Source: Pseudooceanicola sp. (GTDB lineage: Bacteria; Pseudomonadota; Alphaproteobacteria; Rhodobacterales; Rhodobacteraceae). From it: a DNA stretch of 64,000 nucleotides. Each line of letters begins with the position of its first letter. Positions within the stretch are counted from its first letter, which is position 1. Where the stretch lies: positions 62,001 to 126,000 of the forward strand of contig PAPR01000037.1 in assembly GCA_002709085.1 (NCBI GenBank), written 5' to 3'. A program made the position numbers and the translations under genes. Below the pieces are notes generated by a model. The model had not been told where the DNA came from. It saw only the letters and a list, made by a program, of their open reading frames with translations, and searched no databases. Positions 23,426-61,007 of this stretch are shown piece by piece.

Positions 23426-23439
23426 CTAACGATTGTTAG
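23426..23439. promoter_or_regulatory. operator copy 1, CTAACGATTGTTAG
   Basis: Perfect 5-4-5 palindrome 21 bases before the start codon at 23461, just after the -10 element. One of six copies in the island. Confidence 0.75.
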
Positions 23440-25874: not shown

Positions 25875-25903
25875 TTGATAGGTTTTCTAACGCGTGTTAG
25901 ATT
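25875..25903 (+). promoter_or_regulatory. promoter of the first import/activation operon, with embedded operator
   Basis: TTGATA (25875-25880), 17 bases, TAGATT (25898-25903). The operator fills the spacer and runs into the -10. Identical -35 and -10 sequences occur with operator copies 3 and 4 (leftward). Confidence 0.6.
25887..25900. promoter_or_regulatory. operator copy 2, CTAACGCGTGTTAG
   Basis: Perfect 5-4-5 palindrome 43 bases before the SDR start at 25944, lying between -35 and -10. It would control the operon SDR-livG-synthetase-livH-livM-livF-SBP-SBP-ECH-ECH. Confidence 0.75.
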
Positions 25904-35833: not shown

Positions 35834-36616
35834 ATGAGCGAACTGATGCGCCTGGACAGGGACGGCTCTGTCGGTATCTTGCGGTTTCTTCAAACGGCGA
35901 AACGCAATCCTTACAGCATAGCCTTTGTCGACGCGCTCATTGATTGTCTGCGCGAGGCGGATCAGGACGATTCAATCCGGGCTGTGGTCATGACCGGGGG
36001 CGAACATTTCAGCAGCGGCGGGGACCTGGTCGGTTTTCAGGACGAAGTCGCCAAGGGGGCCCGCGCAACCTCCGAGATGATCGACCGTGTTCATGACGGG
36101 GGCCGCGCCGCCTATCAGTTTCGTAAACCGCTGATTTCAGCCGTGCGCGGCGTCGCCTTTGGCGCCGGTCTGAGCCTTGCCTTGTCCGCCGATATCGTCG
36201 TCGCCGCCGAGGATGCCCGGTTGTGCGAAGTCTTTGCACGGGTCGGCGGATGTCCAGACACCGGGTCGAGCTGGCTGCTGCAGCAGCGGGCTGGCGCGGG
36301 CGTGGCGCGGATGCTGGTTCTGACGGGCCGCGAGATCGACGGGCGCACCGCGAGGGAGCTGAACGTCGTGGAAGACTGCGTCCCGGCTGATGAGGTCGAG
36401 GCGCGCGCGCTGGAAATCGCCCGCGAAATCGCGGCCCATCCGATGTTCGGGGTGCAGTCGGCAAAACGGGTGATGCGCTCTGCCGCTGAAAGCAGCTACC
36501 TCGAAGCGCTGGATATCGAGCGTGACGCGCAGACGGTCTTGCTGGCAGCGCATGATTTTCCAGAAGCGATGCGGGCCTTTTCGCAAAAGCGCAAGCCCGA
36601 GTTCCAGGACCGTTGA
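35834..36616 (+). CDS. enoyl-CoA hydratase/isomerase family protein
   Basis: 260 aa crotonase-fold protein with FSSGGDLVGF (oxyanion loop, about residue 57) and LCEVFARVGG (first Glu position kept). The second Glu position reads GVARMLVLTGR, so it is lost. One-Glu crotonases are often isomerases rather than hydratases. Last gene of the first import operon; a strong terminator follows. Confidence 0.82.
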   Translation: MSELMRLDRDGSVGILRFLQTAKRNPYSIAFVDALIDCLREADQDDSIRAVVMTGGEHFSSGGDLVGFQDEVAKGARATSEMIDRVHDGGRAAYQFRKPLISAVRGVAFGAGLSLALSADIVVAAEDARLCEVFARVGGCPDTGSSWLLQQRAGAGVARMLVLTGREIDGRTARELNVVEDCVPADEVEARALEIAREIAAHPMFGVQSAKRVMRSAAESSYLEALDIERDAQTVLLAAHDFPEAMRAFSQKRKPEFQDR

Positions 36617-36658
36617 TCGGTCCCGCCGGGAGGTGATCCGGCCCTGTGCCTATCCCGA

Positions 36659-36684
36659 AGGGCCCGCGAAACGCGGGCCTTTTT
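36659..36684 (+). terminator. Rho-independent terminator
   Basis: GGCCCGCG (36661-36668), AAA loop, CGCGGGCC (36672-36679), then TTTTT. It ends the operon that started at operator copy 2 and is the clearest intrinsic terminator in the window. Confidence 0.85.
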
Positions 36685-36778
36685 CGTGCAGCTGGGCGGC
36701 CTGAGCCAGCGGCCAGCAACGCCTGGGGGAGATCAGCGGTTTGAATATGACGCTGCGTCCAAACCCGCGTGTGATGCG

Positions 36779-36807
36779 TTGATATAAAACATAACGCTTG
36801 TTAGATT
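36779..36807 (+). promoter_or_regulatory. promoter of the stand-alone acyl-CoA dehydrogenase gene, with embedded operator
   Basis: TTGATA (36779-36784), 17 bases, TAGATT (36802-36807). Same hexamers and same operator placement as the promoter at 25875. Confidence 0.65.
36791..36804. promoter_or_regulatory. operator copy 3, ATAACGCTTGTTAG
   Basis: One mismatch (A for the first C) from the CTAAC-N4-GTTAG palindrome, 37 bases before the start codon at 36842, between -35 and -10. Confidence 0.7.
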
Positions 36808-36841
36808 TTCGCAACCGAACCAACTTCTAAGGGTCCACAAA

Positions 36842-37999
36842 ATGTCTTTGATCAAGAATTCACCGTCCTGGGTGTCCGATGAACACAAGATGTTCGCCGA
36901 CACCACACGCAAGCTGTTCGAGGCCGAGATGGCACCGAATGTGGAAAAATGGGCCGAGCAGGGAATCGTCGACCGTGAGTTCTGGACAACGGTAGGCCAG
37001 CAAGGCGTCATGGGGGGCTCGATCGCGGAGGAATACGGCGGCTTTGGCGGCGGCGTCGCGTTTGATGCCATCACCATTTACGAGCAGGGCCGCGTCGGTG
37101 ACAGCGGTTGGGGCTATGGCATCCAGTCCATCGTGATCCATTATCTCAATGCCTATGGCAGCGAGGATCAAAAGAAGAAATGGTTGCCGAAATTGATCAG
37201 CGGCGAAAGTGTCGCCGCGATTGCCATGACGGAGCCGGGGACTGGTTCGGACCTGCAGAACGTTCAAACCTACGCCGAGCAGGACGGAAATCACTACAAG
37301 ATCAACGGCTCGAAGATCTTTATCACCAACGGGCATACCGCTGATCTTGTCGTCGTCGTTGCCAAGACGGATCGCGCGGCAGGGGCCAAGGGCGTGTCGC
37401 TGATCGTTCTGGAAACCGAAGGGGCCGAGGGATTTCGCCGGGGCCGTAACCTCAACAAGCTGGGCATGAAGGGCTCGGACACCGCAGAGCTGTTCTTTGA
37501 GGACGTGCGGGTGCCCACGGCTAACCTGCTGGGCCCGGAGGCGGGGCAGGGGTTCTACCAACTGATGAAGCAACTCCCCTGGGAGCGGCTGCTGATCGGC
37601 ATTACCGCGCTGGGCTTTATCGACTTTGCCATCGCGGAAACGGTCAAATACGTTCAGGAACGCAAGGCGTTCGGTAGTCGGATCATGGATTTTCAGAATA
37701 CGCGGTTCAAGCTGGCGGAATGCAAGACAAAGGCCGAATTGCTGCGCAGTTTCGTGAATGACGGGATTGCCCGGCTTGAAGCGGGCGAGCTTGATGCCGC
37801 CACCGCGTCGATGGCGAAATGGTGGGGCAGCCAGACCCAGAACGAAGTCATGCACGAATGCCTGCAACTGCACGGCGGCTACGGCTTTATGATGGAATAC
37901 CCGATTGCGCGCCTCTACGCCGACAGCCGGGTTCAGATGATCTACGGCGGTACCAATGAAATCATGAAGGAATTGATCGCGCGGTCGCTGGATACCTGA
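36842..37999 (+). CDS. acyl-CoA dehydrogenase
   Basis: 385 aa. Motifs IAMTEPGTGSDL (about residue 130), YKINGSKIFITNG (about 151) and C-terminal MIYGGTNEIMKELIAR are standard for short/medium-chain acyl-CoA dehydrogenases, with Gly rather than Glu in the YxGT loop, so the base would be elsewhere, as in isovaleryl-CoA dehydrogenase. Single-gene unit between a terminator and a convergent operon, under its own operator. Confidence 0.9.
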   Translation: MSLIKNSPSWVSDEHKMFADTTRKLFEAEMAPNVEKWAEQGIVDREFWTTVGQQGVMGGSIAEEYGGFGGGVAFDAITIYEQGRVGDSGWGYGIQSIVIHYLNAYGSEDQKKKWLPKLISGESVAAIAMTEPGTGSDLQNVQTYAEQDGNHYKINGSKIFITNGHTADLVVVVAKTDRAAGAKGVSLIVLETEGAEGFRRGRNLNKLGMKGSDTAELFFEDVRVPTANLLGPEAGQGFYQLMKQLPWERLLIGITALGFIDFAIAETVKYVQERKAFGSRIMDFQNTRFKLAECKTKAELLRSFVNDGIARLEAGELDAATASMAKWWGSQTQNEVMHECLQLHGGYGFMMEYPIARLYADSRVQMIYGGTNEIMKELIARSLDT

Positions 38000-38010: not shown

Positions 38011-39177
38011 TCAGTCACCGTCCGGGCCGAGGATCTCCTCGGTGTGCTCTCCCAACTTGGGGGCCGGGCGGTGATCGTGCCGGGCCGGGGTCGCGGAAAA
38101 GCGGACGGGCGGTCTGGTGGTCCAGATCGCTCCTTCGGAGGGGTGTTCGACCTGCTGGAAAAAGCCCGTCGCCACCAGATGCGGGTCGTTGGGCAGATCC
38201 GCCAGATTGCGGACCGGCATGGCGGGGATGTCGACCGTTTCCATCAGGTCGACCCATTCCTGCGTGCTTCGCGTCAGGGCGATCTGCGCCACCATGTCAT
38301 AGAGCGCGCCGATATTGCGACTGCGGGCCTCCATGTTGGTGACCCAAGGGTGTTCGACCATGTCATCGCGCCCGACGGCCCCGAAGAATCGCGCCCATTG
38401 CAGGTTGGTATAGGGCAGGATCGTGATGAAGCCGTCCATTGTCTGCACGGGGCGACGGTGGGGCACCAGCATCCGCGAATAGCCGAAATCCTTGGGCACA
38501 TCATCGAATGTGGCGCCGTCGAGATGCTCGGTCAGCAGAAAGGCCGTCAGCGTTTCGAACATAGGCACCTCGACGTGCTGGGCCTGGCCCGTGCGTTCGC
38601 GGTGAAACAGCGCCGCCATGACGGCATAGGCCGTGGTCACGCCGCCCAGCTTGTCGGCGAGGACGGTCGGGGAATAGTCGGGCTTTGCGTCGGCGTCGCG
38701 AAGGCTGGGCAGGCTGGCGAGCCCCGAGACCGACTGAACGATGTCATCAAAGGCGGGTTTCGAGGCGTAGGGTCCGTCCTGCCCATAGCCGGTCGCGGCA
38801 ACCGTGATCAGGTTCGGATTTTCGCGTTGCAGCGTTTCGGGATCGAGGGACAGGCGGGCAAGGGCGGCGGGCCGGACGCTGGAGATCATCACATCGGCAT
38901 CCAACAGCAGCTTGCGCAGGCGCGCGCGGCCGGTGTCTGTCTTGAGATCGAGTACCACGCTGCGCTTGTTGCGGTTCGAGCCGAGAAAGGCCGCCCCCAT
39001 CATCGAATTGCGGGCGGGCTGCACCTGGCGGAGCAGATCGCCCTCGGGGCTTTCGATCTTGATCACATCGGCGCCCAGATCGCCCAGCATCTGCGTCGCA
39101 AGCGGGCCGAATATGATCGAGGTCAGGTCGATGATTTTCACACCGTCCATGATACCTGGTTTTCGTGCCTCGGTCAT
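38011..39177 (-). CDS. CaiB/BaiF family III CoA-transferase
   Basis: 388 aa. N-terminal motif IIDLTSIIFGPLATQMLGDLG, then DVIKIESPEGD and RNKRSVVLDLK; the catalytic Asp is in LADKLGGVTTAY (about residue 173). SD AAGGGG before ATG 39177. Second gene of a leftward pair starting at operator copy 4, converging on the acyl-CoA dehydrogenase with 11 bases between stops. Sequence differs enough from its neighbour to suggest a different acyl substrate. Confidence 0.9.
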   Translation of the reverse strand: MTEARKPGIMDGVKIIDLTSIIFGPLATQMLGDLGADVIKIESPEGDLLRQVQPARNSMMGAAFLGSNRNKRSVVLDLKTDTGRARLRKLLLDADVMISSVRPAALARLSLDPETLQRENPNLITVAATGYGQDGPYASKPAFDDIVQSVSGLASLPSLRDADAKPDYSPTVLADKLGGVTTAYAVMAALFHRERTGQAQHVEVPMFETLTAFLLTEHLDGATFDDVPKDFGYSRMLVPHRRPVQTMDGFITILPYTNLQWARFFGAVGRDDMVEHPWVTNMEARSRNIGALYDMVAQIALTRSTQEWVDLMETVDIPAMPVRNLADLPNDPHLVATGFFQQVEHPSEGAIWTTRPPVRFSATPARHDHRPAPKLGEHTEEILGPDGD

Positions 39178-39195: not shown

Positions 39196-40341
39196 CTAGG
39201 CCTGTCTTGCGAACTCCGCGCGGATCGCCGCGCCTTGCGAATCAAGGGCGGGGCTTGGGCCCAGGGTCGTCTCGCCGCCGCTGCGCCGGATCGGAGGCAT
39301 CGGTACGTTGATCTCACCCGAAGCGGTGCCAACCGCGGACCGGTCAAGCTGCGGGTGCCCCGACAGGGCGGCCACATCGTTCACCGCCCCCGATGCGATG
39401 CCTGCCGCGTCGAGCCGCTTCAGCATCTCAGCGCGGTCATGAGAACCGAATTCTGCCTTGATGAGCACTTCGAGATCAGCCTTGTTTTCCAATCGCGATG
39501 TATTGTCGTGAAAGCGGGGGTCATTGGCAAGGTCGGCGTCATTCAGGATATGCTCGCAGAAGCGGGTCCATTCGCCGGAGTGCTGGACCGTGATAACGAC
39601 CAGCTCGCCATCGCCGCATTCGAAGGCGCCATAGGGGCAGATCACCGTATGGTTCAGCCCGACGCGCGGCGTCGCCTTGTTCAGGTAGTCGTGATAGAGC
39701 AGGGGCACCGCCATCCAGTCGGCCATCACGTCGAACATCGCAACCGAAACGCCGCGCCCCTTGCCGGTTTGGTCCCGTTCCACAAGGGCTTCGCAGATGC
39801 CGGCGTGGGCGGTCATGCCAGTCGCGATATCGCAGACCGAGACGCCGACCCTGCCGGGTCCGTCCGGTGTGCCGGTCACAGAGGCCAGGCCGCTTTCGCA
39901 TTGCACCAGCAGGTCATAGGCCTTGGCGTTGCGCATGGGCCCGTCTTCGCCGTAGCCGGTGATATCGCAGGTCACGAGGCGCGGAAACATTTCCCGCAGG
40001 GAGGCGGAATCGAGCCCGATCTTGGCCAGCGCACCGGGCAGAAGGTTCTGAATAAACACATCCGCGTTTTTTAGCATGTTCAGCAGGATGTCGCGGTCCT
40101 CATCGGCCTTGATATCCAGCGCGACTGATTCCTTGCCCCGGTTCAGCCATGTAAAGTAGGCGCTTTCGCCATTCGCAGCCCGGTCGTAAGCGCGCGCGAA
40201 GTCGCCAACGCCCTTGCGTTCGATCTTGATCACGCGCGCCCCGGCGTCGGCCAGTCGCGATGAACAGAACGGGGCCGCAACGGCCTGTTCCAGTGCGACG
40301 ACAAGCTTACCGGAGAGTGGGCCTGAGTTGATACCTGACAT
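39196..40341 (-). CDS. CaiB/BaiF family III CoA-transferase
   Basis: 381 aa. Motifs VVALEQAVAAPFCSSRLADAGARVIKIE (here with one residue string only), RGKESVALDIKADE and the catalytic Asp in VCDIATGMTAH (about residue 168). Related members act as succinyl- or mesaconyl-type CoA-transferases. First gene of the leftward transcript from the divergent operator region, 18 bases before the second CoA-transferase gene. Confidence 0.9.
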   Translation of the reverse strand: MSGINSGPLSGKLVVALEQAVAAPFCSSRLADAGARVIKIERKGVGDFARAYDRAANGESAYFTWLNRGKESVALDIKADEDRDILLNMLKNADVFIQNLLPGALAKIGLDSASLREMFPRLVTCDITGYGEDGPMRNAKAYDLLVQCESGLASVTGTPDGPGRVGVSVCDIATGMTAHAGICEALVERDQTGKGRGVSVAMFDVMADWMAVPLLYHDYLNKATPRVGLNHTVICPYGAFECGDGELVVITVQHSGEWTRFCEHILNDADLANDPRFHDNTSRLENKADLEVLIKAEFGSHDRAEMLKRLDAAGIASGAVNDVAALSGHPQLDRSAVGTASGEINVPMPPIRRSGGETTLGPSPALDSQGAAIRAEFARQA

Positions 40342-40370: not shown

Positions 40371-40407
40371 TTGACGAAAATCTAACATTCGTTAGAAACA
40401 TTATCAA
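40371..40407. promoter_or_regulatory. divergent promoter region sharing one operator
   Basis: Leftward: TTGATA (reverse of 40402-40407), 17 bases, TAGATT (reverse of 40379-40384). Rightward: TTGACG (40371-40376), 16 bases, TAGAAA (40393-40398), a weaker -10. Both spacers contain the same palindrome, so one bound regulator would block both directions. Confidence 0.6.
40382..40395. promoter_or_regulatory. operator copy 4, CTAACATTCGTTAG
   Basis: Perfect 5-4-5 palindrome in the 105-base divergent gap, 40 bases before the leftward start (40341) and 51 before the rightward start (40447). Confidence 0.75.
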
Positions 40408-40446: not shown

Positions 40447-40824
40447 ATGACAGCGTCCAGTGGACCAGACGCGACGTTCCGAGAGGCCCTCGCGAAGAAC
40501 GAATTCCTGCTGCCCCAGTGCGATGATTGTGGGAAATTTCACTTTTTCCCCCGTGTGATGTGCCCGCATTGTCATGGCGCCGCGATAACTTGGAAGCCGG
40601 CCAGCGGCAAGGGTCGGGTCTATACCACAACCGTCGTGCGCCAGAAGGCTGAACGTGGCGGCGACTACAATGTCTGTGTCGTCGAGCTGGCGGAAGGTGT
40701 GCGAATGATGAGCCGGATCGAGGGGATCGAACCCGGTGACGTGACCATCGACATGGCCGTGCGCGCGATTATCGGGGAAGCCGAGGGGCAGCCCGCGATC
40801 CTGTTCCAGCCGGATGAGGGGTGA
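40447..40824 (+). CDS. DUF35 zinc-ribbon/OB-fold acyl-CoA-associated protein
   Basis: 125 aa. An N-terminal helix is followed by a rubredoxin-like zinc ribbon (CDDCGKFHFFPRVMCPHC, about residues 21-38) and an OB-fold strand set (GRVYTTTVVRQK, EGVRMMSRIEG). DUF35 proteins partner thiolase-fold enzymes; in mycobacterial cholesterol side-chain breakdown the DUF35 part of ChsH2 binds the retro-aldolase Ltp2. Here it is separated by three bases from a Cys-less thiolase-fold gene, which strongly suggests they form a complex. Confidence 0.85.
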   Translation: MTASSGPDATFREALAKNEFLLPQCDDCGKFHFFPRVMCPHCHGAAITWKPASGKGRVYTTTVVRQKAERGGDYNVCVVELAEGVRMMSRIEGIEPGDVTIDMAVRAIIGEAEGQPAILFQPDEG

Positions 40825-40827
40825 GAC

Positions 40828-41979
40828 ATGAGCAGTGATCTGCGAGGAAAATCCGCCATTGTGGGCACCGGCCACGCGGGCTTTGGCGAAGCGCACGGGC
40901 TGACGGCCTATGATGTCATGGCGCAATCCGCGCTGGCCGCGCTGGGCGATGCCGGGTTGAGGCTGTCGGATGTGGACGGGCTGTTCTGCACCATGATGGA
41001 AGACAGCATGCCGGCCTTGATGGCGGCGGAGTATCTGGGCATTCAGCCGCGCTTTGTCGATGGCACGATGTCGGGCGGGTCGTCCTTTGTGAACTATCTG
41101 ACCTCCGCGACCATGGCGCTGGACGCCGGGCTGTGTGACGTCGCGCTGATTGTCTATGGTTCGAACCAGCGCACCGCCTCGGGCAGGCTGGTGACGGCCT
41201 CGCGCCCGCCGGCCTATGAGGCGATCTACAATCCGCGCTATCCGATTTCCGCCTATGCCATGGCGGCGGCGCGGCACATGCATGAATACGGCACCACCCG
41301 TGAGCAACTGGCCGATGTCGCCGTGGCCGCACGGGCCTGGGCGCAGCACAATCCCGAAGCCTTTGAGCGCGGCCCGCTGACCCGCGAGGACGTGCTGGGC
41401 GCGCGTATGGTGGGCGATCCGCTGACCGTGCGCGATTGCTGTCTGGTGACCGACGGCGGCGGCGCAATCGTGATGGTCCGGGCCGAGCGCGCCAAGGATT
41501 TCCCCAAGGCGCCGGTCTATGTGCTGGGCAGTGCGGCACAGAGTTCGCATCGTCAAATATCACAGATGAAGGATTTTACCGTCACCGCCGCGCGCGAGTC
41601 CGGCCAGCGCGCCTATGCGGCGGCGGGCGTTTCGGCCAAGGATATTCAGGCGGTCGAGCTCTATGATGCCTTTACTATCAACACGATCCTGTTTCTCGAA
41701 GACCTCGGATTCTGCGCCAAGGGCGAGGGCGGTGCCTTTGTCGAAGGCGGGCGCATCGCGCCGGAGGGCGCCTTGGCGGTGAACACCAATGGTGGGGGGC
41801 TCTCTTGTGTGCATCCCGGCATGTACGGTATTTTCACCGTGATCGAGGCCGCGCGGCAAATCCGTGGCGACGCGCCCGGTCTTCAGTTGAACAATGTCGA
41901 TCTGGCGCTGGCACATGGCAACGGCGGTGTGCTGACCAGTCAGGTCACGGCAATCTTGGGATCACAAGCCACACTCTGA
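40828..41979 (+). CDS. thiolase-fold protein lacking the nucleophilic Cys (SCP2/Ltp2-like)
   Basis: 383 aa. Overall thiolase architecture with C-terminal NTNGGGLSCVHPGMYG and AHGNGGVLTSQ. The position of the acylated Cys reads DGTMSGGSSFV; aligning on the following ALDAG element puts Gly where the Cys should be, whereas the second thiolase of this window has NACASAST there. Cys-less thiolase-fold enzymes next to DUF35 proteins include the retro-aldolase Ltp2. I infer C-C cleavage of a beta-hydroxyacyl-CoA rather than CoA-dependent thiolysis; a non-catalytic lipid-transfer role is the alternative. Confidence 0.8.
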   Translation: MSSDLRGKSAIVGTGHAGFGEAHGLTAYDVMAQSALAALGDAGLRLSDVDGLFCTMMEDSMPALMAAEYLGIQPRFVDGTMSGGSSFVNYLTSATMALDAGLCDVALIVYGSNQRTASGRLVTASRPPAYEAIYNPRYPISAYAMAAARHMHEYGTTREQLADVAVAARAWAQHNPEAFERGPLTREDVLGARMVGDPLTVRDCCLVTDGGGAIVMVRAERAKDFPKAPVYVLGSAAQSSHRQISQMKDFTVTAARESGQRAYAAAGVSAKDIQAVELYDAFTINTILFLEDLGFCAKGEGGAFVEGGRIAPEGALAVNTNGGGLSCVHPGMYGIFTVIEAARQIRGDAPGLQLNNVDLALAHGNGGVLTSQVTAILGSQATL

Positions 41980-42002
41980 AAGCGATCAAGGGAGGAAAGA
42001 TC

Positions 42003-42860
42003 ATGCCATTGGATTTCGAAGCACTTTCAAACTGGGATTTCGAAGAGAACCAGCAAACGCTGACTGAGCGGGATACCATTCTGTACGCGCTCGGCCTGGG
42101 GTTCGGCGAGGATCCCACCGACAAGAAGGAGCTGGCCTTTGTCTATGAGGACAACCTCAAGGCGGTCCCCTCGATGCCCGTCATCCTGGGTTATCCCGGT
42201 TTTTGGCTGCGCAATCCCAAGACCGGGGTGAACTGGCAGAAGGTCCTGCACGGCGAGCAATGGCTGGACATCTACAAACCCCTGCCGGTGAAGGCTAACT
42301 TGATCGGGCGCAGCAAGATCGACTTCATCGCGGACAAGGGCGAAGGCAAGGGCGCGGTCATTTATCAAAGCCGTGACATTATCGACGTCGACAGCGGCGA
42401 GACGCTGGCGCGCGTGGCGATGTCGGCATTCTGCCGCGGCGACGGCGGTTTCGGCGGAGAGAACAAGGCCGGCCCTGCGCCCGCCACGTTGCCCGACCGT
42501 GCGCCGGATCATGTCTGCGATATCGAGACCCTGCCGCGTCAGGCGCTGATCTACCGGCTCAGCGGTGACATGAACCCGCTGCATGCCGACCCGGATGTGG
42601 CGCAATCGGTCGGCTTTGATCGCCCGATCCTGCATGGCCTTGCAACCTATGGTCTGGCGGCGCGCGCGATCCTCAAGAGCGTGCTCGACTACGATGCCTC
42701 GCGTCTGGTCGGATTGGATGTGCGGTTCTCGGCCCCGGTCTATCCCGGCGAAACCGTGCGTTTCGAGATCTGGGAAGAAGGCGGCGAAGCCCGTTTCCGC
42801 GCCTCGGTTCCGGCGCGCGACGTGTTGGTTCTGAACAACGGGGCCGCGCGTTTCGCGTGA
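42003..42860 (+). CDS. MaoC-family 2-enoyl-CoA hydratase 2
   Basis: 285 aa double hot-dog protein from ATG 42003, with GGAGG eight bases upstream; a longer reading lies inside the thiolase gene. The hydratase-2 signature YRLSGDMNPLHADP is complete (about residues 181-194), with Asp and His as catalytic residues. The family includes peroxisomal hydratase 2, which acts on straight-chain and trihydroxycholestenoyl-CoA substrates and gives (3R)-hydroxyacyl-CoA. Lies between the thiolase-like and racemase-like genes. Confidence 0.9.
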   Translation: MPLDFEALSNWDFEENQQTLTERDTILYALGLGFGEDPTDKKELAFVYEDNLKAVPSMPVILGYPGFWLRNPKTGVNWQKVLHGEQWLDIYKPLPVKANLIGRSKIDFIADKGEGKGAVIYQSRDIIDVDSGETLARVAMSAFCRGDGGFGGENKAGPAPATLPDRAPDHVCDIETLPRQALIYRLSGDMNPLHADPDVAQSVGFDRPILHGLATYGLAARAILKSVLDYDASRLVGLDVRFSAPVYPGETVRFEIWEEGGEARFRASVPARDVLVLNNGAARFA

Positions 42861-42870
42861 GATAGGCATC

Positions 42871-43998
42871 ATGGCACAGCCGCTAAAGGATATCCTGGTC
42901 CTGGATTTCAGCACTTTGCTGCCCGGACCGATGGCCACCCTGATGCTGGCTGAAGCCGGCGCCGAGGTGGTCAAGTTCGAGCGTCCCGTCACAGGCGAGG
43001 ACGCGCGACATACGGACCCCAAGATCGAGGGGGAAAGCATCGGGTTTGCCGTCCTGAATCAAGGCAAGCGCTCGGTAGCTATCGACCTCAAGGCGCAGGA
43101 CACCATGGATGTCCTGCGTCCCCTGCTCGAAAAGGCCGATGTGCTGGTCGAGCAGTTTCGCCCCGGTGTGATGGAGCGCCTTGGGCTGGGCTATGAGGCG
43201 GTGCGGGCGATCAACCCGGCGCTCATATATTGTTCGATCACCGGCTATGGTCAGACCGGCCCGAAAGCGTTGGCCGCGGGTCACGATCTGAACTACGTGG
43301 GCGACGCCGGAATCCTGTCGCTGAGCAGCGGGACCGAGGATAGCCCGACCATGCCCTTTGGCCTTGTCGCCGATATCGGTGGCGGAACCTACCCGGCGGT
43401 GGTGAACATCCTGCTGGCCCTGATCGCACGTCAGCAAAGCGGGCAGGGGACCCACCTTGATATCGCCATGGCAGAGGGTGCCTTCACCTTTGCCTATTGG
43501 GCCCATGCGCAGGGAGTTGTCGCCGGGCAGGATATCCAAAACGGCGGCAGCCGGGTGACAGGCGGGTTGGCGCGCTACCGGCTTTACACGGCTGCCGACG
43601 GGCGAAAGATCGCGGTCGGCGCCATCGAGGAAAAGTTCTGGCAAGCCTTCTGCGATGTGATTGATCAGCCTCAGGACCTGCGCGACGACCTGAGCGATCC
43701 AGAGACCTGCGCCGCCGAGGTCGCACGCCGTCTGGGCCGCGAACCGTCGACCCATTGGGGGCCCTTGTTGGTGGCGGCGGATTGCTGTTGCTCGGTCGTG
43801 AAGACCCCGGCTGAGGCTGCCCGTGACCCCCATTTCAATGCCCGCGGTGTCTTTGACCGCAAGCTGAGCATCGCCGGTCAGCAGGCACCATCGTTGCCAT
43901 TGCCGATCGCTGCGGAGTTTCGCTCTTCGGCAGGGGAAACGGGGCGCGCGTCGCCCTTGGGAAAGGACAATATCCGCTATGGCGCGAAGTCGCCGTAA
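42871..43998 (+). CDS. alpha-methylacyl-CoA racemase-type protein (family III CoA-transferase fold)
   Basis: 375 aa. Three regions match racemases rather than CoA-transferases: GHDLNYVGDAG (His, about residue 134), VADIGGGTYPAV (Asp, about 165) and AVGAIEEKFWQ (Glu, about 250), corresponding to His126, Asp156 and Glu241 of the mycobacterial enzyme. Start motif LDFSTLLPGPMATLML is also typical. It would interconvert (R)- and (S)-2-methylacyl-CoA, needed when degrading isoprenoid or sterol side chains. Last gene of the DUF35-thiolase-MaoC-racemase operon. Confidence 0.85.
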   Translation: MAQPLKDILVLDFSTLLPGPMATLMLAEAGAEVVKFERPVTGEDARHTDPKIEGESIGFAVLNQGKRSVAIDLKAQDTMDVLRPLLEKADVLVEQFRPGVMERLGLGYEAVRAINPALIYCSITGYGQTGPKALAAGHDLNYVGDAGILSLSSGTEDSPTMPFGLVADIGGGTYPAVVNILLALIARQQSGQGTHLDIAMAEGAFTFAYWAHAQGVVAGQDIQNGGSRVTGGLARYRLYTAADGRKIAVGAIEEKFWQAFCDVIDQPQDLRDDLSDPETCAAEVARRLGREPSTHWGPLLVAADCCCSVVKTPAEAARDPHFNARGVFDRKLSIAGQQAPSLPLPIAAEFRSSAGETGRASPLGKDNIRYGAKSP

Positions 43999-44013: not shown

Positions 44014-44042
44014 TTGACGCGCCGACTTCGGCTCGTTAATCT
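44014..44042 (+). promoter_or_regulatory. promoter of the transglutaminase-like operon
   Basis: TTGACG (44014-44019), 17 bases, TAATCT (44037-44042). The operator begins within the -10 and covers the likely transcription start, as at copy 1. Confidence 0.65.
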
Positions 44043-44054
44043 AACAAGTGTTAG
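44041..44054. promoter_or_regulatory. operator copy 5, CTAACAAGTGTTAG
   Basis: Perfect 5-4-5 palindrome 25 bases before the start at 44080, downstream of -10. Controls the six-gene operon to 49590. Confidence 0.75.
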
Positions 44055-44079: not shown

Positions 44080-44799
44080 ATGGTAGATTCTAAAAACGGC
44101 CTTCCGGCAGAAGCCGAACGGTACCTGACGAAAACTCAGTTTGTCGAAAGCGATAGCCCGGAGGTGCAGGACTTTGTTGCATCCGCCTTGCGTGATCTGC
44201 CAGCCGATGCGTCTGATCGCGACAAGACGATCCGTTTGTTCGAAGCGGTGCGCGACAAAATCCGTTACGACCCCTATTGTTTCGAACTGGATGCGGAGGC
44301 CTACCGTTCCAGCCGTGTCGCCAAGGCAGAAGCGGCCTTCTGCGTGCCCAAGGCGATCCTTCTGGCGGCTTGTCTGCGCTCTGTCGGCATCCCGGCTGCC
44401 CTTGGGTTTGCTGACGTGCGCAACCACCTGAACACACCTAAGCTGCAAGAGCTGATGGAAACCGATCTGTTCATCTACCACGGATATGTTCAAGTCTGGC
44501 TGGGCGAAGAGACCTATAAGATCACGCCCGCATTCAACATCGACCTTTGCGAGCGTTTCGGCGTCAAGCCTCTGGTGTTTGACGGCTATCACGACGCGTT
44601 GTTCCACGAGTTCGACGAAGCGGACCAGCGGCACATGGAATATGTGAATGACCGTGGGCTTTTCGTCGATCCGCCGATGGACGAATTTCTGACCGCATTC
44701 CGCGCGACCTATCCAAAGCTGGAAGAGCTTAACCGTGACCGGAGGTCCAAGGACTCCAGCGCCTATGACGCTGGCTTCGCGAAGGAGACGACGACTTGA
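44080..44799 (+). CDS. transglutaminase-like cysteine-protease-fold protein
   Basis: 239 aa from ATG 44080 with GGGGAGG upstream; an upstream in-frame start would lie in front of the operator. Transglutaminase-like core: VRDKIRYDPY, then Cys in FCVPKAILLAACLRSVGIPA (about residue 88), His in YHGYVQVWL (about 138) and Asp in ITPAFNIDLC (about 153), a Cys-His-Asp triad. Such proteins are peptidases or amidases in bacteria. Its place as first gene of an acyl-CoA operon is unusual; it could cleave an amide or thioester conjugate, but this is inference. It overlaps the next gene by four bases (TTGA). Confidence 0.78.
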   Translation: MVDSKNGLPAEAERYLTKTQFVESDSPEVQDFVASALRDLPADASDRDKTIRLFEAVRDKIRYDPYCFELDAEAYRSSRVAKAEAAFCVPKAILLAACLRSVGIPAALGFADVRNHLNTPKLQELMETDLFIYHGYVQVWLGEETYKITPAFNIDLCERFGVKPLVFDGYHDALFHEFDEADQRHMEYVNDRGLFVDPPMDEFLTAFRATYPKLEELNRDRRSKDSSAYDAGFAKETTT

Positions 44800-45263
44800 A
44801 GTATGACGACAACTTGAAATATCTGGACGATTTTCAGGCGGGAGACGTCTTTCGGTTCCGCAGCGATCCGATGAGCGCCGAATCGATCAAGGCCTTCGCC
44901 AATGAGTGGGATCCCCAGCGGCTGCACACCGATGAAGCCTATGCGACAGAGATCCACGGCAGCCTGATCGCCTCCGGGTTCCAGACCTTGCTTGAGGTGT
45001 TCAAGCCGATGATGAGCGACTTCATGGTCGGGATCGCCAATATCGGCGGCATCGGATTCGACACCCTGCGTTGGGTCAGGCCGGTGCGCCCTGATGAGGC
45101 TCTGGATATCGAGTTGACGGTGAATTCGGTCAAACCTTCGGCGAGTAAACCGGACCGGGGTGTGTTGCACTACACGCTCAGCGCCAAGAACCCAAAGGGC
45201 GAAGTCGTCTTTACCACTGACGCGCCGATGATGATTCAACGGAAACAAAATGGCACAGACTGA
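44796..45263 (+). CDS. MaoC-like hot-dog hydratase, TTG start
   Basis: 155 aa. Single hot-dog MaoC domain with AFANEWDPQRLHTDEAYA (about residues 31-48) and a GSLIASGFQT helix, the (R)-specific enoyl-CoA hydratase pattern with Asp and His. The only usable start is TTG 44796, overlapping the previous stop, with AAGGAG about eight bases upstream; the nearby ATG is out of frame. Its end overlaps the next gene by 14 bases, so translation is tightly coupled. Confidence 0.85.
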   Translation: MKYDDNLKYLDDFQAGDVFRFRSDPMSAESIKAFANEWDPQRLHTDEAYATEIHGSLIASGFQTLLEVFKPMMSDFMVGIANIGGIGFDTLRWVRPVRPDEALDIELTVNSVKPSASKPDRGVLHYTLSAKNPKGEVVFTTDAPMMIQRKQNGTD

Positions 45264-46374
45264 TATGAATTCTAGCGACTCCGAAGATCTTCGTTTGTTG
45301 CGCGAAAGCGCGCGAACTCTCTTTGATCGTGCGGGTGGAAGCGCCCGTGCGCGGAAACTGCGCGATGCAGGTGGCGGCTGGGATGCGGACATGGTCCGTG
45401 AATTGGCCGAGGCCGGGGTCTTTGGCGTTACAGTCCCCGAGGACAAGGGCGGGCTGGGCATGGGTCTGGCCGCCGGCGGTGTCATCGCCGAGGAAGTCGG
45501 CCGCGTGATCGGGCCGGAGCCGGTGGTTGCGACTGTCGGGCTGAGCCTGGGTCTTTTGCGTCGTCTATGCCCGGATCATGTCCTGATGGGGCAGTTGATC
45601 GGCGGCGAGGTCGTTCAAGCGGTGGCTTGGCAAGAGCGCGGCGCGAATGGCGCCCCCGCGGAGCCGTCCTGCCGATATGCGGACGGCAAGCTGAGCGGTA
45701 GCAAGGCCTGGGTGGTCGGTGCGGCTGGGGCGCAGAGCTTCCTCGTCGTGGCCGAAGCCGATGCCGGGCCGGTTCTGGTCCTGGTGCAGAGCGACGCGAG
45801 CGGGCTTTCAATCGAGAAGCGGACGCAGGCCGATGGCAGCGTCATGGGTGAGCTGTCGTTCTCGGGCACGCCCGGTGAGCAACTGGCCGAGGGTGCTGCG
45901 GTGCGCGATGCGCTGACGGACGCGGTGAGCGATGCGACCGCGCTGGCGGCTGCCGAACTCGTCGGCCTGTGCGACAGGGCGTTCGAGATTACGCTCGACT
46001 ATATCAAGACCCGCGAGCAATTCGACAAGCCGATCGGCTCTTTCCAGGCCATTCAACACCGCGCGGTGGATCTGAATGTGATGCGCGAAGTCGCGCAGGC
46101 CGGCGTGCGCGAAGTCCTCGCCCGGATGGACGGTGAGACCGATCCGACAGCCCGCGAGCGTCTGGCCAGCCGCGCAAAGTCGCGCGCTGTCACCGCCGCG
46201 AAAAAGATCACGCGGGACGGGATCCAGATGCACGGGGCGGTTGGTTACACCGATGAATTCGATGTCGGTCTTTATCTGAACCGGGCGCTGGTCCTTTCGG
46301 CGTGGCTGGGGGACGACGGATATCACAGGCGGCGTTGGTTCAACGCGCGCGAAGAAGGGGGAGCCGCACAATGA
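45250..46374 (+). CDS. acyl-CoA dehydrogenase, probable partner subunit
   Basis: 374 aa. Recognisable acyl-CoA dehydrogenase fold with YIKTREQFDKPIGSFQAIQHR (about residues 250-270, given here as its key stretch) and QMHGAVGYTDEFDVGLYL near the end. The middle domain is weak: the TEPxxGSD motif is replaced by AVAWQERGANGAP. It overlaps the following dehydrogenase by four bases. Such pairs in steroid side-chain pathways (ChsE1-ChsE2, ChsE4-ChsE5) form alpha2beta2 enzymes, which is the likely arrangement here. Confidence 0.85.
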   Translation: MAQTDMNSSDSEDLRLLRESARTLFDRAGGSARARKLRDAGGGWDADMVRELAEAGVFGVTVPEDKGGLGMGLAAGGVIAEEVGRVIGPEPVVATVGLSLGLLRRLCPDHVLMGQLIGGEVVQAVAWQERGANGAPAEPSCRYADGKLSGSKAWVVGAAGAQSFLVVAEADAGPVLVLVQSDASGLSIEKRTQADGSVMGELSFSGTPGEQLAEGAAVRDALTDAVSDATALAAAELVGLCDRAFEITLDYIKTREQFDKPIGSFQAIQHRAVDLNVMREVAQAGVREVLARMDGETDPTARERLASRAKSRAVTAAKKITRDGIQMHGAVGYTDEFDVGLYLNRALVLSAWLGDDGYHRRRWFNAREEGGAAQ

Positions 46375-47522
46375 CGGATTGGAACGCTTTGAGCGATGCG
46401 GAGTTCCGCCAGGAAGTCCGCCAGTTCTTCGAAACACAATATCCCGAGCACCTGCGCAATCTTTCGCACCGTCCCAAGTTCGCGGAGCTGGCGGATTGGC
46501 ACGAGAAGCTTCACGCCAAGGGCTGGGTTGCGCCGGCATGGCCCGCCGAATTTGGCGGCATGGGTCTTAACGCCGCGAAATTGCTGATCTTTTACGAAGA
46601 GCAGCAGCGCTGGGGTGTGAACCGTGGTCGCGACATGGGCGTGCAGATGGTTGGCCCGCTGATCATCAAGTTCGGCACGCAGGAGCAAAAAGACTATTGG
46701 TTGCCGCGTATTCTCAGCTGCGCCGACATCTGGTGTCAGGGCTATTCCGAGCCGGGCGCCGGTTCTGACCTCGCCAATCTACGCACACGCGCCGAAGTCG
46801 ACGGGGATGATTTCATCATCAATGGTCAGAAGATCTGGACCACGATGGCGCATGACGCCACGCATATCTTTATGTTGGTGCGGACCGATCTGGACACGCC
46901 GAAGAAACAGCAGGGCATCAGCTTTGTCCTGGCGCCGATGGATCAGTCCGGTGTGGAGGTGCGTACGATCACCACCCTGTCGGGCGAGACCGAGTTCTGC
47001 GAAGTCTTTTTCGACAATGCCCGCACGCCGCGCGAGAACCTCGTTGGCGAGATGAACAAGGGCTGGACCATGGCGAAGGCGCTTCTGAGTTTTGAGCGCA
47101 TCTTCATCGGCTCGCCGAGCCTGGCCCAGAATGCCCTCGGCCAGCTGGAGAGCTTTGCCAGGGGTCGCGGCGCCTTTGACGATCCGGTGTTCCGCGACCG
47201 ATTTGCGCAGGCCGCCCTCGACGTCGAGGATCACGCGGCGCTCTATACCCGTTTCGCGGATCAGCTCAAACGGGGCGAGACGCTGGGCGCGGATGTCTCG
47301 ATGCTCAAAATCTGGGTGACCGAGTGCTTCCAGCGCATCACCGAACTTATGATCGAGGCGGCAGGCCCGGATGGTGGAACGGTAGGTCCGCTTCAGGTCG
47401 GCAATGTCGGTGTGGATGTTCTGTCGAGCTTCTACAAGGCCCGCCCTGCCACGATCTACGGGGGATCCAACGAGATCCAACGCAATATTCTGTCCAAGGC
47501 CGTCCTCGGATTGCCGGGCTGA
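46371..47522 (+). CDS. acyl-CoA dehydrogenase, probable catalytic partner
   Basis: 383 aa from ATG 46371 (ATGA overlap with the previous gene, GGGGGAG upstream). Motifs WCQGYSEPGAGSDLANL (about residues 121-137), FIINGQKIWTT and C-terminal ATIYGGSNEIQRNILSKAVLGLPG, the latter with Gly in place of the MCAD Glu. WCQGYSEPGAGSDL is characteristic of a large family linked to steroid, terpenoid and cyclic-acid degradation. I infer a heteromer with the 374-aa protein. Confidence 0.9.
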   Translation: MTDWNALSDAEFRQEVRQFFETQYPEHLRNLSHRPKFAELADWHEKLHAKGWVAPAWPAEFGGMGLNAAKLLIFYEEQQRWGVNRGRDMGVQMVGPLIIKFGTQEQKDYWLPRILSCADIWCQGYSEPGAGSDLANLRTRAEVDGDDFIINGQKIWTTMAHDATHIFMLVRTDLDTPKKQQGISFVLAPMDQSGVEVRTITTLSGETEFCEVFFDNARTPRENLVGEMNKGWTMAKALLSFERIFIGSPSLAQNALGQLESFARGRGAFDDPVFRDRFAQAALDVEDHAALYTRFADQLKRGETLGADVSMLKIWVTECFQRITELMIEAAGPDGGTVGPLQVGNVGVDVLSSFYKARPATIYGGSNEIQRNILSKAVLGLPG

Positions 47523-47556: not shown

Positions 47557-48366
47557 ATGTCTGACCGTTATGCAAAATACGACAAGCTGAAATTCGACTA
47601 CCCGGCGGATCGCGTCCTGCGCATCACATTCGACCGGCCCGAGTCGTTCAACTCGGTCGATGCCGAAACCCACACCCAGATGACGGATATGTGGATCGAT
47701 ATCGACCGCGACCAGGACATCAACGCGGTCATCGTGACCGGCGCGGGCAAAGCCTTCTCTGCCGGCGGCGATTTCAGCCTGATCGAAAACATGATCGGCA
47801 ATTCGCATGAGATCATGAAGACGTGGAAAGAAGCCAAGGACCTCGTCTACAACATCATCAACTGCAACAAGCCGATCATCTCCGCGATCAACGGTCCGGC
47901 AGCGGGCGCAGGCCTGGTTGTCGCGATCCTCGCCGACATCTCGATCGCCGGCAAGCGCGCCAAGATCGTCGATGGCCACCCGCGTCTGGGCGTCGCCGCC
48001 GGTGACGTTGCCGCGATCATCTGGCCGCTGCTGACTTCGATGGCCAAGGCAAAGTACTACCTGATGACCTGCAAGCCGGTCTCGGGCGAAGAAGCCGAGC
48101 GCATCGGTCTGGTCTCGATGTGCGTCGAGGACGAAGAGCTGCAGCAAATCGCGCTGGATACCGCCGTCGAACTGTCGAACGCATCGCAAAGCGCGGTCCG
48201 CTGGACCAAGTATTCGCTGAACAACTGGCTGCGTCAGGCGGGTCCGATCTTTGATGCTTCGACCGCGCTGGAAATGCTTGGCTTCATGGGCGAGGATGTT
48301 AAGGAAGGTGTGCTGTCGCACCGCGAGAAGCGCGCGCCGAACTTCCGTAAGGACTGCCCGCTTTAA
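47557..48366 (+). CDS. enoyl-CoA hydratase/isomerase family protein without the two catalytic Glu
   Basis: 269 aa crotonase-fold protein. The oxyanion elements [11 protein letters not shown] (about residue 67) and INGPAAGAG (about 110) are intact, but the two Glu positions read [13 protein letters not shown] and [11 protein letters not shown] (His and Lys). It probably does not work as a classical hydratase; crotonases with altered residues act as isomerases, hydrolases or retro-Claisen enzymes. A good GGAGG site precedes the ATG. Confidence 0.85.
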
Positions 48367-48393: not shown

Positions 48394-49590
48394 ATGTCAG
48401 CAAGTATCTACAAGGATATCGCGCAGGCCTATGCCGCTGCGACCGATAAGGCTCCGGGTTTGAAATCCCGATTTGCGGCTGCCGGATTCGATCCGGCAGC
48501 CGTCGGATCACTGGCGGACTTATCCCGTCTGCCAGTGATGAAGAAAGAAGAGCTTCTCAAGATCCAGCGTGACGATCCGCCCTTTGGCGGTTTTCTCGCC
48601 GCGGATCTGAAAGACGTCGGGCGGATTTATGTCTCGCCCGGACCGATATTCGAACCGTCGCTTTCGGGCGTCGGGGGACATGGGCTGGACCTTTTGTTCA
48701 AAGCGGCCGGAGTGGGCGCAGGGGATGTCATCCTGAACACCTGGATGTATCACCTTGTCCCGGCGGGGCTGCTGTTTGACGAAGCCGCGCAGGCGGCTGG
48801 CGCGACGGTCATTCCCGGCGGCGTGGGCAACACCGAGCTTCAGGCTCAGATCATCGTGGAAACCGGCGTTACGTCGATCTGTGCCTCGACCGCCTTTTTC
48901 CTGACCCTTGCGGACAAGGTCATCGAAACCTATGGCCGTGACGCGTGGAAGGTAAAGACCGCCTTCCTTGGCGGCGAAATGGGTGACTGGATGGCCAAGC
49001 GCCGCCGGATCGAGGCCGATTATGGCGTGTCGACCTGGGCGGCCTATGCGACCGCCGATCTTGGCCTTGTCGGCTATGAGGATGGCGGCGAAGGCTATGT
49101 GGTTCACCCCGATCGCGTGGTCCAGATCTGTGATCCCGTGAGCGGTGAGCAGGTGGCTCATGGCGAGCCGGGCGAGGTCGTCGTGACCGCGCGCGATGCC
49201 ACCTGGCCGATGATCCGCTTTGGCACCGGGGACAGCGCCTTTGCGCTGGAAAGCAACGAGGATGGCAGTGTCAGCCGCGTCTCCGCTCTTCAGGGGCGTG
49301 TCGGCGCGGCGGTGAAAGTACGTGAGATTTTCGTTTATCCGCGCGTGGTCGAAGAGGTCGTCATCGCGACGTCGGGGGCCAAGGCCGCACAGGCTGTCGT
49401 GACGCGCGAGAACGACCGCGATATGATCCGTCTTTCACTGGTGCTGGAAGATGGCGCCGATGCCGCGGCTGCTGAGGCCGCCGCCGGCGAGGCATTCAAG
49501 CTGCATGCGAGAATTCGGGCCGATGCGGTGAGCGTCGTTGCGGAATTGCCGGAAAATGCTGAGCTGATCGTCAATCAGAAAGACGGCTGA
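48394..49590 (+). CDS. PaaK-like adenylate-forming-fold protein lacking the P-loop
   Basis: 398 aa. C-terminal motifs are those of phenylacetate-CoA ligases: GEPGEVVVT, PMIRFGTGD (about residues 267-275), LQGRVGAAVKVREIFVYPRVVEEV (A8 region, about 300-320). The nucleotide-binding A3 loop, normally SSGTTGKPT, is replaced by YVSPGPIFEPSLSG (about residues 77-90). It may still be a CoA ligase with a changed ATP site, or an inactive acyl-CoA binder. Last gene of the operon that starts at operator copy 5; AAGGAGG precedes the ATG. Confidence 0.82.
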   Translation: MSASIYKDIAQAYAAATDKAPGLKSRFAAAGFDPAAVGSLADLSRLPVMKKEELLKIQRDDPPFGGFLAADLKDVGRIYVSPGPIFEPSLSGVGGHGLDLLFKAAGVGAGDVILNTWMYHLVPAGLLFDEAAQAAGATVIPGGVGNTELQAQIIVETGVTSICASTAFFLTLADKVIETYGRDAWKVKTAFLGGEMGDWMAKRRRIEADYGVSTWAAYATADLGLVGYEDGGEGYVVHPDRVVQICDPVSGEQVAHGEPGEVVVTARDATWPMIRFGTGDSAFALESNEDGSVSRVSALQGRVGAAVKVREIFVYPRVVEEVVIATSGAKAAQAVVTRENDRDMIRLSLVLEDGADAAAAEAAAGEAFKLHARIRADAVSVVAELPENAELIVNQKDG

Positions 49591-60978: not shown

Positions 60979-61007
60979 AACTAACATACGTTAGAAAAAT
61001 AAATCAA
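60979..61007 (-). promoter_or_regulatory. promoter of the second import operon, with embedded operator
   Basis: On the minus strand TTGATT (61002-61007) and TAGTTT lie 18 bases apart with the palindrome between them; TTGTTG-N16-TATGTT is an alternative pair. Arrangement resembles the promoters at 25875, 36779 and the leftward one at 40402. Confidence 0.5.
60981..60994. promoter_or_regulatory. operator copy 6, CTAACATACGTTAG
   Basis: Perfect 5-4-5 palindrome 157 bases before the livG GTG start (130 before the ATG alternative). Followed by AT-rich DNA. Confidence 0.75.

Follow-up and report, generated by a model that had tools for sequence, protein, structure and literature searches.

Results

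Gene organisation of the locus and main finding

The DNA analysed here, referred to as the window, is a stretch of 64,000 nucleotides from contig C37 (PAPR01000037.1) of Pseudooceanicola sp. By analysis of open reading frames (ORFs) it contains four tightly packed genes on the plus strand, encoding a stand-alone DUF35 protein, a protein of the thiolase fold, a MaoC-type enoyl-CoA hydratase 2 and a CaiB/BaiF protein of the racemase type. The gap between the DUF35 gene and the thiolase-fold gene is three bases. Pfam domains over cut-off are zf-ChsH2 and OB_ChsH2_C in the DUF35 protein, Thiolase_C_1 in the thiolase-fold protein, MFE-2_hydrat-2_N and MaoC_dehydratas in the hydratase, and CoA_transf_3 in the CaiB/BaiF protein. 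A preliminary description of the locus had reported this three-base spacing, a Gly at the nucleophile position of the thiolase fold, a hydratase 2 and a racemase with intact His/Asp/Glu; the coordinates, alignments and best structural matches given here agree with it on all four. It had further proposed a steroid-type retro-aldolase module. In this study, we show that the thiolase-fold protein has lost the thiolase nucleophile, keeps the Tyr of known aldolases and is paired with DUF35, and we suggest that the two proteins form a retro-aldolase of a plasmid-borne pathway.

Active site of the thiolase-fold protein

With 627.9 bits against a cut-off of 421, the thiolase-fold protein belongs fully to NCBIfam family PRK06158 (NF004811). 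Its nearest solved relatives are 4U4E (E 2.8e-105), the aldolase CtSal (9MYR, 5.8e-52) and the aldolase TcLtp2 (6OK1, 5.3e-50), after which ranks BbsB (7PXP, 3.8e-39). The protein was aligned with the sequences of Protein Data Bank (PDB) entries and with 82 homologs, CtSal being numbered with an offset of 24 residues. The alignment was verified, since Tyr294 and Tyr344 of TcLtp2 and Tyr302 and Gln352 of CtSal fall at their published numbers. The homologs comprise two plasmids and 80 loci, the latter being the best of 577 found with six peptides, of which HPGMYGIF and HMHEYGTT overlap positions counted below.

The nucleophilic Cys of canonical or SCP-2 thiolases is not present in the alignment. 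Its column holds Gly84, whereas Cys stands there in 6HSJ, 7YVY and the second thiolase of the window (51000-52238). According to PMC12329534, CtSal, in which Gly likewise replaces the nucleophile, is unable to perform thiolysis. Tyr279 occupies the column of TcLtp2 Tyr294 and CtSal Tyr302, the aldolase base. The same article describes the CtSal variant Y302F as without activity or all but inactive, reports undetectable activity for Cys304 variants, and states that the equivalent Tyr matters in TcLtp2 (PMC12329534). Ala281 is found in the column of CtSal Cys304 and TcLtp2 His296, giving the motif YDAF as compared to YDCY in Sal and YDHF in Ltp2, and His329 falls in the column of TcLtp2 Tyr344 and CtSal Gln352. 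Gly83, Gly84, Tyr279, Asp280, Ala281 and Phe282 are invariant in all 82 homologs. Because the base is kept and the known acids are replaced, the thiolase-fold protein must use another acid. We propose, from the alignment, that this is probably His329. Our working class of DUF35-dependent retro-aldolases combines the lack of a nucleophilic Cys with a catalytic Tyr and a DUF35 gene partner, and all three are found here. A second PRK06158-type protein over the family cut-off is encoded in the same genome (contig C53, 20059-21207; locus L001), with the motif YDSF and a DUF35 neighbour.

Phylogeny and fold

A maximum-likelihood tree was built from 47 rows, which included 20 of the 80 loci, hand-picked for spread; it was rooted at the midpoint for drawing, and several long branches were flagged. 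Six Cys thiolases stand apart in this tree (support 100/98). The window protein falls inside a clade of 28 rows (99/97) together with 4U4E. The neighbouring group consists of Sal and Ltp2/IpfD (96/86), and the two are united at 98/91; four Ltp2/IpfD rows form a group of their own (100/100) with the window protein outside. On this tree the protein belongs to a third Cys-less clade, whose sister group comprises Sal and Ltp2, the steroid aldolases, together with IpfD. Membership in Ltp2 was rejected on account of the separate clade and, the base Tyr being present, of YDAF in place of YDHF and His329 in the Tyr344 column. Membership in Sal was rejected for the separate clade, Ala281 in the Cys304 column and the lack of YDCY. 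The preliminary description is thus upheld in setting the protein outside the true thiolases and beside Sal and Ltp2, but it belongs to neither. Since the known general acids of both are missing, the term steroid-type describes the layout of the genes and not the active site. When the phylum was searched with CtSal, three of 249 genomes gave matches at E <= 1e-60, and one of the four matches (L092) grouped with the PRK06158-type proteins.

A structure model of the window protein reached a predicted local distance difference test score (pLDDT) of 82.6 and a predicted template modelling score of 0.87. With this model, the best Foldseek matches were 4U4E (49% identity), 6OK1 (Ltp2) and 9MYR (Sal), ahead of Cys thiolases.

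DUF35 is the constant partner

In 78 of the 80 loci, corresponding to 31 of 32 clusters formed at 80% identity, the gene immediately upstream, on the same strand, encodes DUF35. The two remaining loci were both counted as misses; the end of a contig cuts off L047, and no upstream DUF35 gene was seen in L062. In seven of the 78 pairs, all labelled Comamonadaceae, DUF35 and thiolase fold are a single open reading frame. The nearest solved relatives of the DUF35 protein are 9MYR_B, then 6HTJ_A and 6OK1_B, and it shows the usual four-Cys pattern. In close loci the thiolase-fold protein is far better conserved than DUF35 (93% as compared to 71-75% in Roseobacter loci).

Published accounts of the role of DUF35 differ. 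For Comamonas testosteroni TA441, it is reported that both activities are retained when MaoC and DUF35 are expressed separately, and that DUF35 is essential for aldolase activity (PMC12502768). Contrary to this, PMC11321319 states that in the Mycobacterium tuberculosis system DUF35 does not appear important for activity; it also states that Shy and Sal associate through DUF35.

Hydratase, racemase, dehydrogenases and gene order

The hydratase 2 contains the motif SGDMNPLHADP, and its best solved relative is the peroxisomal multifunctional enzyme type 2 (MFE-2; 1S9C, E 1.7e-55). Its start was taken at 42003; the ORF listing gives a longer TTG frame from 41805. The racemase-type CaiB protein is 36% identical to the M. 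tuberculosis racemase MCR, and its His138, Asp168 and Glu253 align with MCR His126, Asp156 and Glu241, which we take to be the catalytic residues. The other three CaiB proteins of the island are without the racemase His and Glu; the possibility that all four are racemases was rejected, as one of four keeps these residues. Two adjacent acyl-CoA dehydrogenases (ACADs) match different subunits of 6WY8, namely Tcur3481 (E 3e-35) and Tcur3483 (E 1.9e-51). We take 6WY8 and 4X28 to be heteromeric steroid dehydrogenases, and by analogy the adjacent pair recalls an igr-type operon.

CaiB genes are within 5 kb in 27 of the 80 loci (10 of 32 clusters). The order DUF35, thiolase fold, MaoC, CaiB occurs in 15 of the 80 loci, which belong to Rhodobacterales and, in a few cases, Hyphomicrobiales, and also on all three annotated plasmids read, therefore the arrangement is not due to chance. 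In Variovorax, the order DUF35, thiolase, MaoC, CoA transferase recurs, with a CaiB protein without racemase residues. For the Ferrovibrio locus L020, loss of hydratase 2 was considered and rejected, because the first part of the gene is present before masked sequence begins; neither CaiB4 nor MaoC2 was found there. All features are listed in Table 1. The transglutaminase-fold protein heading the downstream operon, a co-regulated operon of acyl-CoA catabolism, matches no solved structure convincingly at the sequence level (best E 0.93). Homologs are encoded in 16 of the 80 loci; among 385 alphaproteobacterial genomes, 50 have one.

Table 1. Features of the island in the window (positions refer to the window)
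Feature	Position	Strand	Remarks
Operator-like site	23426..23439		upstream of CaiB1-ACAD1 genes, island start
Operator-like site	25887..25900		upstream of SDR-LIV transporter-FadD genes (SDR, short-chain dehydrogenase/reductase)
Operator-like site, one mismatch	36791..36804		upstream of ACAD at 36842
CaiB/BaiF protein, likely CoA-transferase	38011..39177	-	without racemase His/Glu
CaiB/BaiF protein, likely CoA-transferase	39196..40341	-	without racemase His/Glu; divergent from DUF35 across the operator
Exact palindromic operator-like site CTAACATTCGTTAG	40382..40395		between divergent CaiB3 gene and DUF35 gene
Stand-alone DUF35, zinc ribbon and OB fold	40447..40824	+	C-x2-C-x10-C-x2-C intact from residue 25
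Cys-less thiolase-fold protein, probable retro-aldolase	40828..41979	+	Gly84, Tyr279-Asp-Ala-Phe, Cys327, His329
MFE-2 type enoyl-CoA hydratase 2, two hot-dog halves in one chain	42003..42860	+	285 amino acids
Alpha-methylacyl-CoA racemase type CaiB/BaiF protein	42871..43998	+	His138/Asp168/Glu253
Second operator-like site CTAACAAGTGTTAG	44041..44054		upstream of next operon
Transglutaminase-fold protein	44080..44799	+	first gene of co-regulated downstream operon
Single-domain MaoC protein	44796..45263	+	
Acyl-CoA dehydrogenase, small subunit type	45250..46374	+	best PDB match 6WY8_A, Tcur3481
Acyl-CoA dehydrogenase, large subunit type	46371..47522	+	best PDB match 6WY9_A/6WY8_B, Tcur3483; then 4X28_A
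Enoyl-CoA hydratase/isomerase	47557..48366	+	PRK07327 subfamily, over cut-off
PaaK-like CoA ligase	48394..49590	+	below PaaK cut-offs
Operator-like site	60981..60994		upstream of second LIV transporter-FadD gene set

Shared operator-like sites and the regulon

The palindrome CTAACNNNNGTTAG occurs in five exact copies in the window, each before a gene set, including that of DUF35, and was not found in 100 shuffles; a sixth site carries one mismatch. The 3.02-Mb genome contains seven exact palindromes, all of them on contig C37 between 85426 and 143248, as compared to one for the reversed control pattern. Among 14 related loci in which such sites were read, an exact site precedes DUF35 in 13 and the transglutaminase gene in all 14, with varying spacers.

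The remainder of the regulon, on the same contig, was reached through the two sites that lie outside the window. It encodes a 3-hydroxy-3-methylglutaryl-CoA (HMG-CoA) lyase (268.7 bits, cut-off 246), biotin carboxylase and carboxyltransferase subunits, PaaK-like and other CoA ligases, an ACAD resembling cyclohexanecarboxyl-CoA dehydrogenase (517 bits, below the cut-off of 575) and a protein similar to Old Yellow Enzyme/dienoyl-CoA reductase with a palindromic site at its front. The carboxyltransferase is annotated as methylcrotonoyl-CoA carboxylase in some plasmids, and pimC/pimD-like proteins are among the proteins of the package. A further palindromic site lies at the front of a gene for a 437-residue TetR-type protein (L125 17820-19133), annotated as TetR family in related plasmids. 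Its sequence suggests to us two TetR halves in tandem, and it is likely the regulator of the whole package.

A citrate-synthase C-terminal domain protein (62706-63515) adjoins an ACAD in the window; a similarly placed gene is a citryl-CoA lyase in the annotation of related plasmids. In related plasmids, etfBA-type genes lie between the ECH2 gene and the next ACAD (L087 14087-15771, L088 12631-14315, L127 580-2264), and the corresponding interval of the window (36616-36842) measures only about 0.2 kb.

Occurrence on plasmids

Genes for RepA-type partition, SopB-HTH and Rep3-type initiator proteins (18129-21968) adjoin the island. These genes and the size of contig C37 (149,858 bases) suggest a plasmid, and contig C37 is probably one. 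Among 571 matching plasmid records, 39 carry the thiolase-fold gene at 80% identity or more. The corresponding figures are 38 of 751 for the carboxyltransferase and 38 of 1710 for the ACAD at the same threshold, and 36 of 443 for the regulator at 60-80%. Many of the package-bearing records are near-alike Pseudosulfitobacter plasmids, which account for 21 of the 39. In the stretches read, plasmids of Roseovarius indicus, Roseibium aggregatum and Sagittula contain the same package genes plus etfBA, and on two related plasmids a gene of the nitronate monooxygenase family adjoins the island. The Roseibium plasmid additionally encodes BioY, an AtuA-family protein, more carboxylase proteins and a protein annotated as lipid-transfer protein. 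The last of these (L126 33457-34641) could be another aldolase.

Classically, 3-methyl branches are dealt with by carboxylase, HMG-CoA lyase and AtuA-family genes, as in the Atu and Liu pathways. Of this Atu-type set, carboxylase and HMG-CoA lyase are in the regulon here and AtuA is elsewhere; in Roseibium all are on one plasmid.

Discussion

Proposed function

From these results we infer which reaction takes place, which residue serves as acid, in what order the steps follow and what the substrate is. DUF35 and the thiolase-fold protein would act as one enzyme, performing retro-aldol cleavage of a 3-hydroxyacyl-CoA and not thiolysis of a 3-ketoacyl-CoA. The racemase would set the 2-methyl centre, the heteromeric acyl-CoA dehydrogenase (45250-47522) would make the alpha,beta-enoyl-CoA, and hydratase 2 would add water to it. 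Tyr279 would then serve as the base and His329 probably, or else Cys327, as the acid, giving propionyl-CoA or acetyl-CoA and a ketone or aldehyde. A second branch of the pathway would use biotin carboxylase and HMG-CoA lyase. A retro-aldolase is likelier than a thiolase because the nucleophile is lost, the Tyr is kept, the sister groups are aldolases and DUF35 is the partner. Racemase, heteromeric dehydrogenase and hydratase 2 fit a 2-methyl-branched substrate, with cleavage to propionyl-CoA and a ketone as by Ltp2. Together with the carboxylase, HMG-CoA lyase and AtuA-family genes, this 2-methyl-type set suggests an isoprenoid-like acid, while the cyclohexanecarboxyl-CoA dehydrogenase-like and pimC/pimD-like proteins make an alicyclic acid possible, for example a p-menthane acid. 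The preliminary description had concluded from the absence of ring genes in the window that the substrate is novel. The substrate is not identified in this way; the genes of the wider regulon indicate an acid that is methyl-branched, isoprenoid-like or alicyclic. That DUF35 and the thiolase-fold protein are the retro-aldolase of a plasmid-borne, operator-coordinated pathway for such an acid is a reading to which we give a probability slightly above one half (about 0.55).

Several observations weigh against it. Both known general acids are gone, with Ala281 for CtSal Cys304 and His329 for TcLtp2 Tyr344. The invariance of His329 in 82 of 82 homologs is partly by construction, as the search peptide HPGMYGIF spans it; His329 is also present in 4U4E and in plasmid rows L094, L097, L098 and L104, which were found by other searches. 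Residues 323-328 of the model, which adjoin His329, have pLDDT below 50, and this limits the active-site geometry. The VIA-align Z values are tightly spaced (9MYR 47.5, 4U4E 47.0, 6OK1 46.1, TbSLP 45.7, thiolase 6ESQ 45.5; a fold missing from that listing is no evidence of absence), therefore the fold alone does not decide between aldolase and thiolase. In an AlphaFold model of the natural fusion L053 (48 rows), pLDDT was about 30 over much of residues 55-146, perhaps owing to misaligned short rows; the OB domain was badly modelled and taught nothing on docking. DUF35 is the constant partner, but hydratase 2, which the preliminary description had included in the module, is optional: it lies within 5 kb in 32 of the 80 loci (14 of 32 clusters), which counts against a fixed four-gene module outside close relatives. 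The carboxylase subunits reached no NCBIfam cut-off that would assign a substrate class. The AtuA family, a point in favour, is present in 17 of 18 island-bearing records (14 of 15 genomes and 3 of 3 complete plasmids, L013 and L020 being left out and the Roseibium gene being known beforehand from its annotation), against 86 of 289 genomes in the class background, but the island-bearers are close relatives and not independent samples. The AtuA gene of the window's own genome lies on another contig (C38), and among the 18 records examined one island genome (G611) lacks the family.

Alternative explanations

The enzyme could be a retro-aldolase for a cyclic or aromatic side chain (of steroid, bile-acid or 2-arylpropionate type), in which case the genes for the ring would be located elsewhere. 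We consider this unlikely. The nearest characterised relatives do cut the side chains of steroids (Sal, Ltp2) and of ibuprofen-CoA (IpfD), and the ACAD pair nearest to the 6WY8 subunits, the cyclohexanecarboxyl-CoA dehydrogenase-like ACAD at 517 of the 575 bits and the nitronate monooxygenase-family gene on two related plasmids would all suit such a role. However, no ring-hydroxylating oxygenase or P450 was found among the island genes scanned or annotated, the scan covering part of the ORFs of the window, and KshA_C had no match in the genome, which is 77% complete. Moreover, the known steroid side-chain routes do not, to our knowledge, include genes for carboxylase, HMG-CoA lyase or the AtuA family, and a steroid substrate is less likely.

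That the protein is an ordinary thiolase-like enzyme of beta-oxidation, in which Cys327 replaces the nucleophile and which acts with an SDR on 3-ketoacyl-CoAs, appears improbable. Cys327 (GGGLSC-x-HPGM) is kept in 76 of the 82 homologs, two residues from the thiolase-type His329, and SDR genes, typical of ordinary beta-oxidation and a further point against a retro-aldolase, are nearby in 18 of 32 clusters. Yet in the other six homologs Cys327 is replaced by Tyr, Phe, His or Trp, for which reason a true thiolase with a displaced Cys was rejected; in addition the tree sets the protein apart from the six Cys thiolases tested, and the His of their HDxx motif is Tyr here. Finally, a scaffold role, either regulatory or without any catalysis, in which the protein would bind acyl-CoA together with DUF35 and bring other enzymes into place, would agree with the loss of the nucleophile and of both aldolase acids, but is very improbable given the six invariant residues and a conservation above that of DUF35, which argues for a working active site.

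Significance

The retro-aldolase reading has a wider version, which we put forward tentatively. The protein would belong to a third DUF35-dependent retro-aldolase family that is not tied to steroids and has a Tyr-His (YDAF/HPGM) active site different from those of Sal and Ltp2. In marine Rhodobacterales, this family would carry out the carbon-carbon cleavage in a pathway for isoprenoid-like acids that has spread horizontally on plasmids and also contains a carboxylase/HMG-CoA lyase branch. PRK06158 proteins are named acetyl-CoA acetyltransferase or thiolase, a function that the window protein very probably cannot have. The family is over cut-off in 40 of 289 alphaproteobacterial genomes sampled, hence its reclassification would change many predicted pathways. 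As 39 plasmid records carry the thiolase-fold gene, its substrate may be widespread in the sea. What this substrate is can be tested directly via the inducer, given the operator-like site and the TetR-type regulator. Our literature search turned up no publication on the gene package or on Tcur3481, and among the papers listed none mentioned PRK06158, an absence that is unproven; a P. aeruginosa paper (PMC4412052) gave expression lists only.

Comparison with known systems

The closest parallel in layout is IpfD-IpfE on plasmid pIBU218 of Rhizorhabdus wittichii, where ipfD was taken as the gene at L093 5962-7116 and ipfE as the preceding gene for a 127-residue DUF35 protein, on the basis of plasmid and gene order. 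As here, a Cys-less thiolase fold has a stand-alone DUF35 directly upstream; it is plasmid-borne and serves a non-steroid substrate, both of which are probably true of the window protein as well, and a CaiB gene with racemase-like His/Asp/Glu and a gene related to enoyl-CoA hydratase are nearby. A stand-alone DUF35, which the preliminary description had regarded as novel, is therefore already known. Unlike the window protein, IpfD belongs to the Ltp2 clade, with YDHF and a Tyr344-type acid, and no MaoC gene is among the features of the 13-kb stretch of pIBU218. According to PMC9195938, ibuprofen-CoA is reportedly dioxygenated and then cut by a retro-aldolase to propionyl-CoA and 4-isobutylcatechol.

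TcLtp2 with the DUF35 of ChsH2, a steroid C3 side-chain aldolase (6OK1), shares the fold, the Gly in the nucleophile column, the base (Tyr294, corresponding to Tyr279) and the DUF35 partner, but has Tyr344 as acid where the window protein has His329, and His296 where it has Ala281. In that system DUF35 is a domain of the MaoC protein ChsH2, as PMC11321319 describes it, in contrast to the separate gene of the window. CtSal with CtShy, a bile-acid C5 side-chain aldolase (9MYR), has the same features in common, with Tyr302 as the base. It differs by the catalytic Cys304 in place of Ala281, and by the DUF35 site of Shy, described as Cys3His1 in PMC12329534, as compared to four Cys in the window.

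The closest solved structure, 4U4E from Sphaerobacter thermophilus, agrees in the Gly and His positions but has YDSF, with Ser for Ala281, and Tyr for Cys327; its entry title reads putative thiolase only. The benzoylsuccinyl-CoA thiolase BbsA-BbsB (7PXP) likewise combines a separate DUF35 subunit with a thiolase-fold partner, but it is called a thiolase by its depositors, and BbsB presumably carries the nucleophilic Cys. Compared with these systems, what is new here is not the stand-alone DUF35 but a candidate third aldolase clade with a residue set of its own, embedded in a plasmid regulon.

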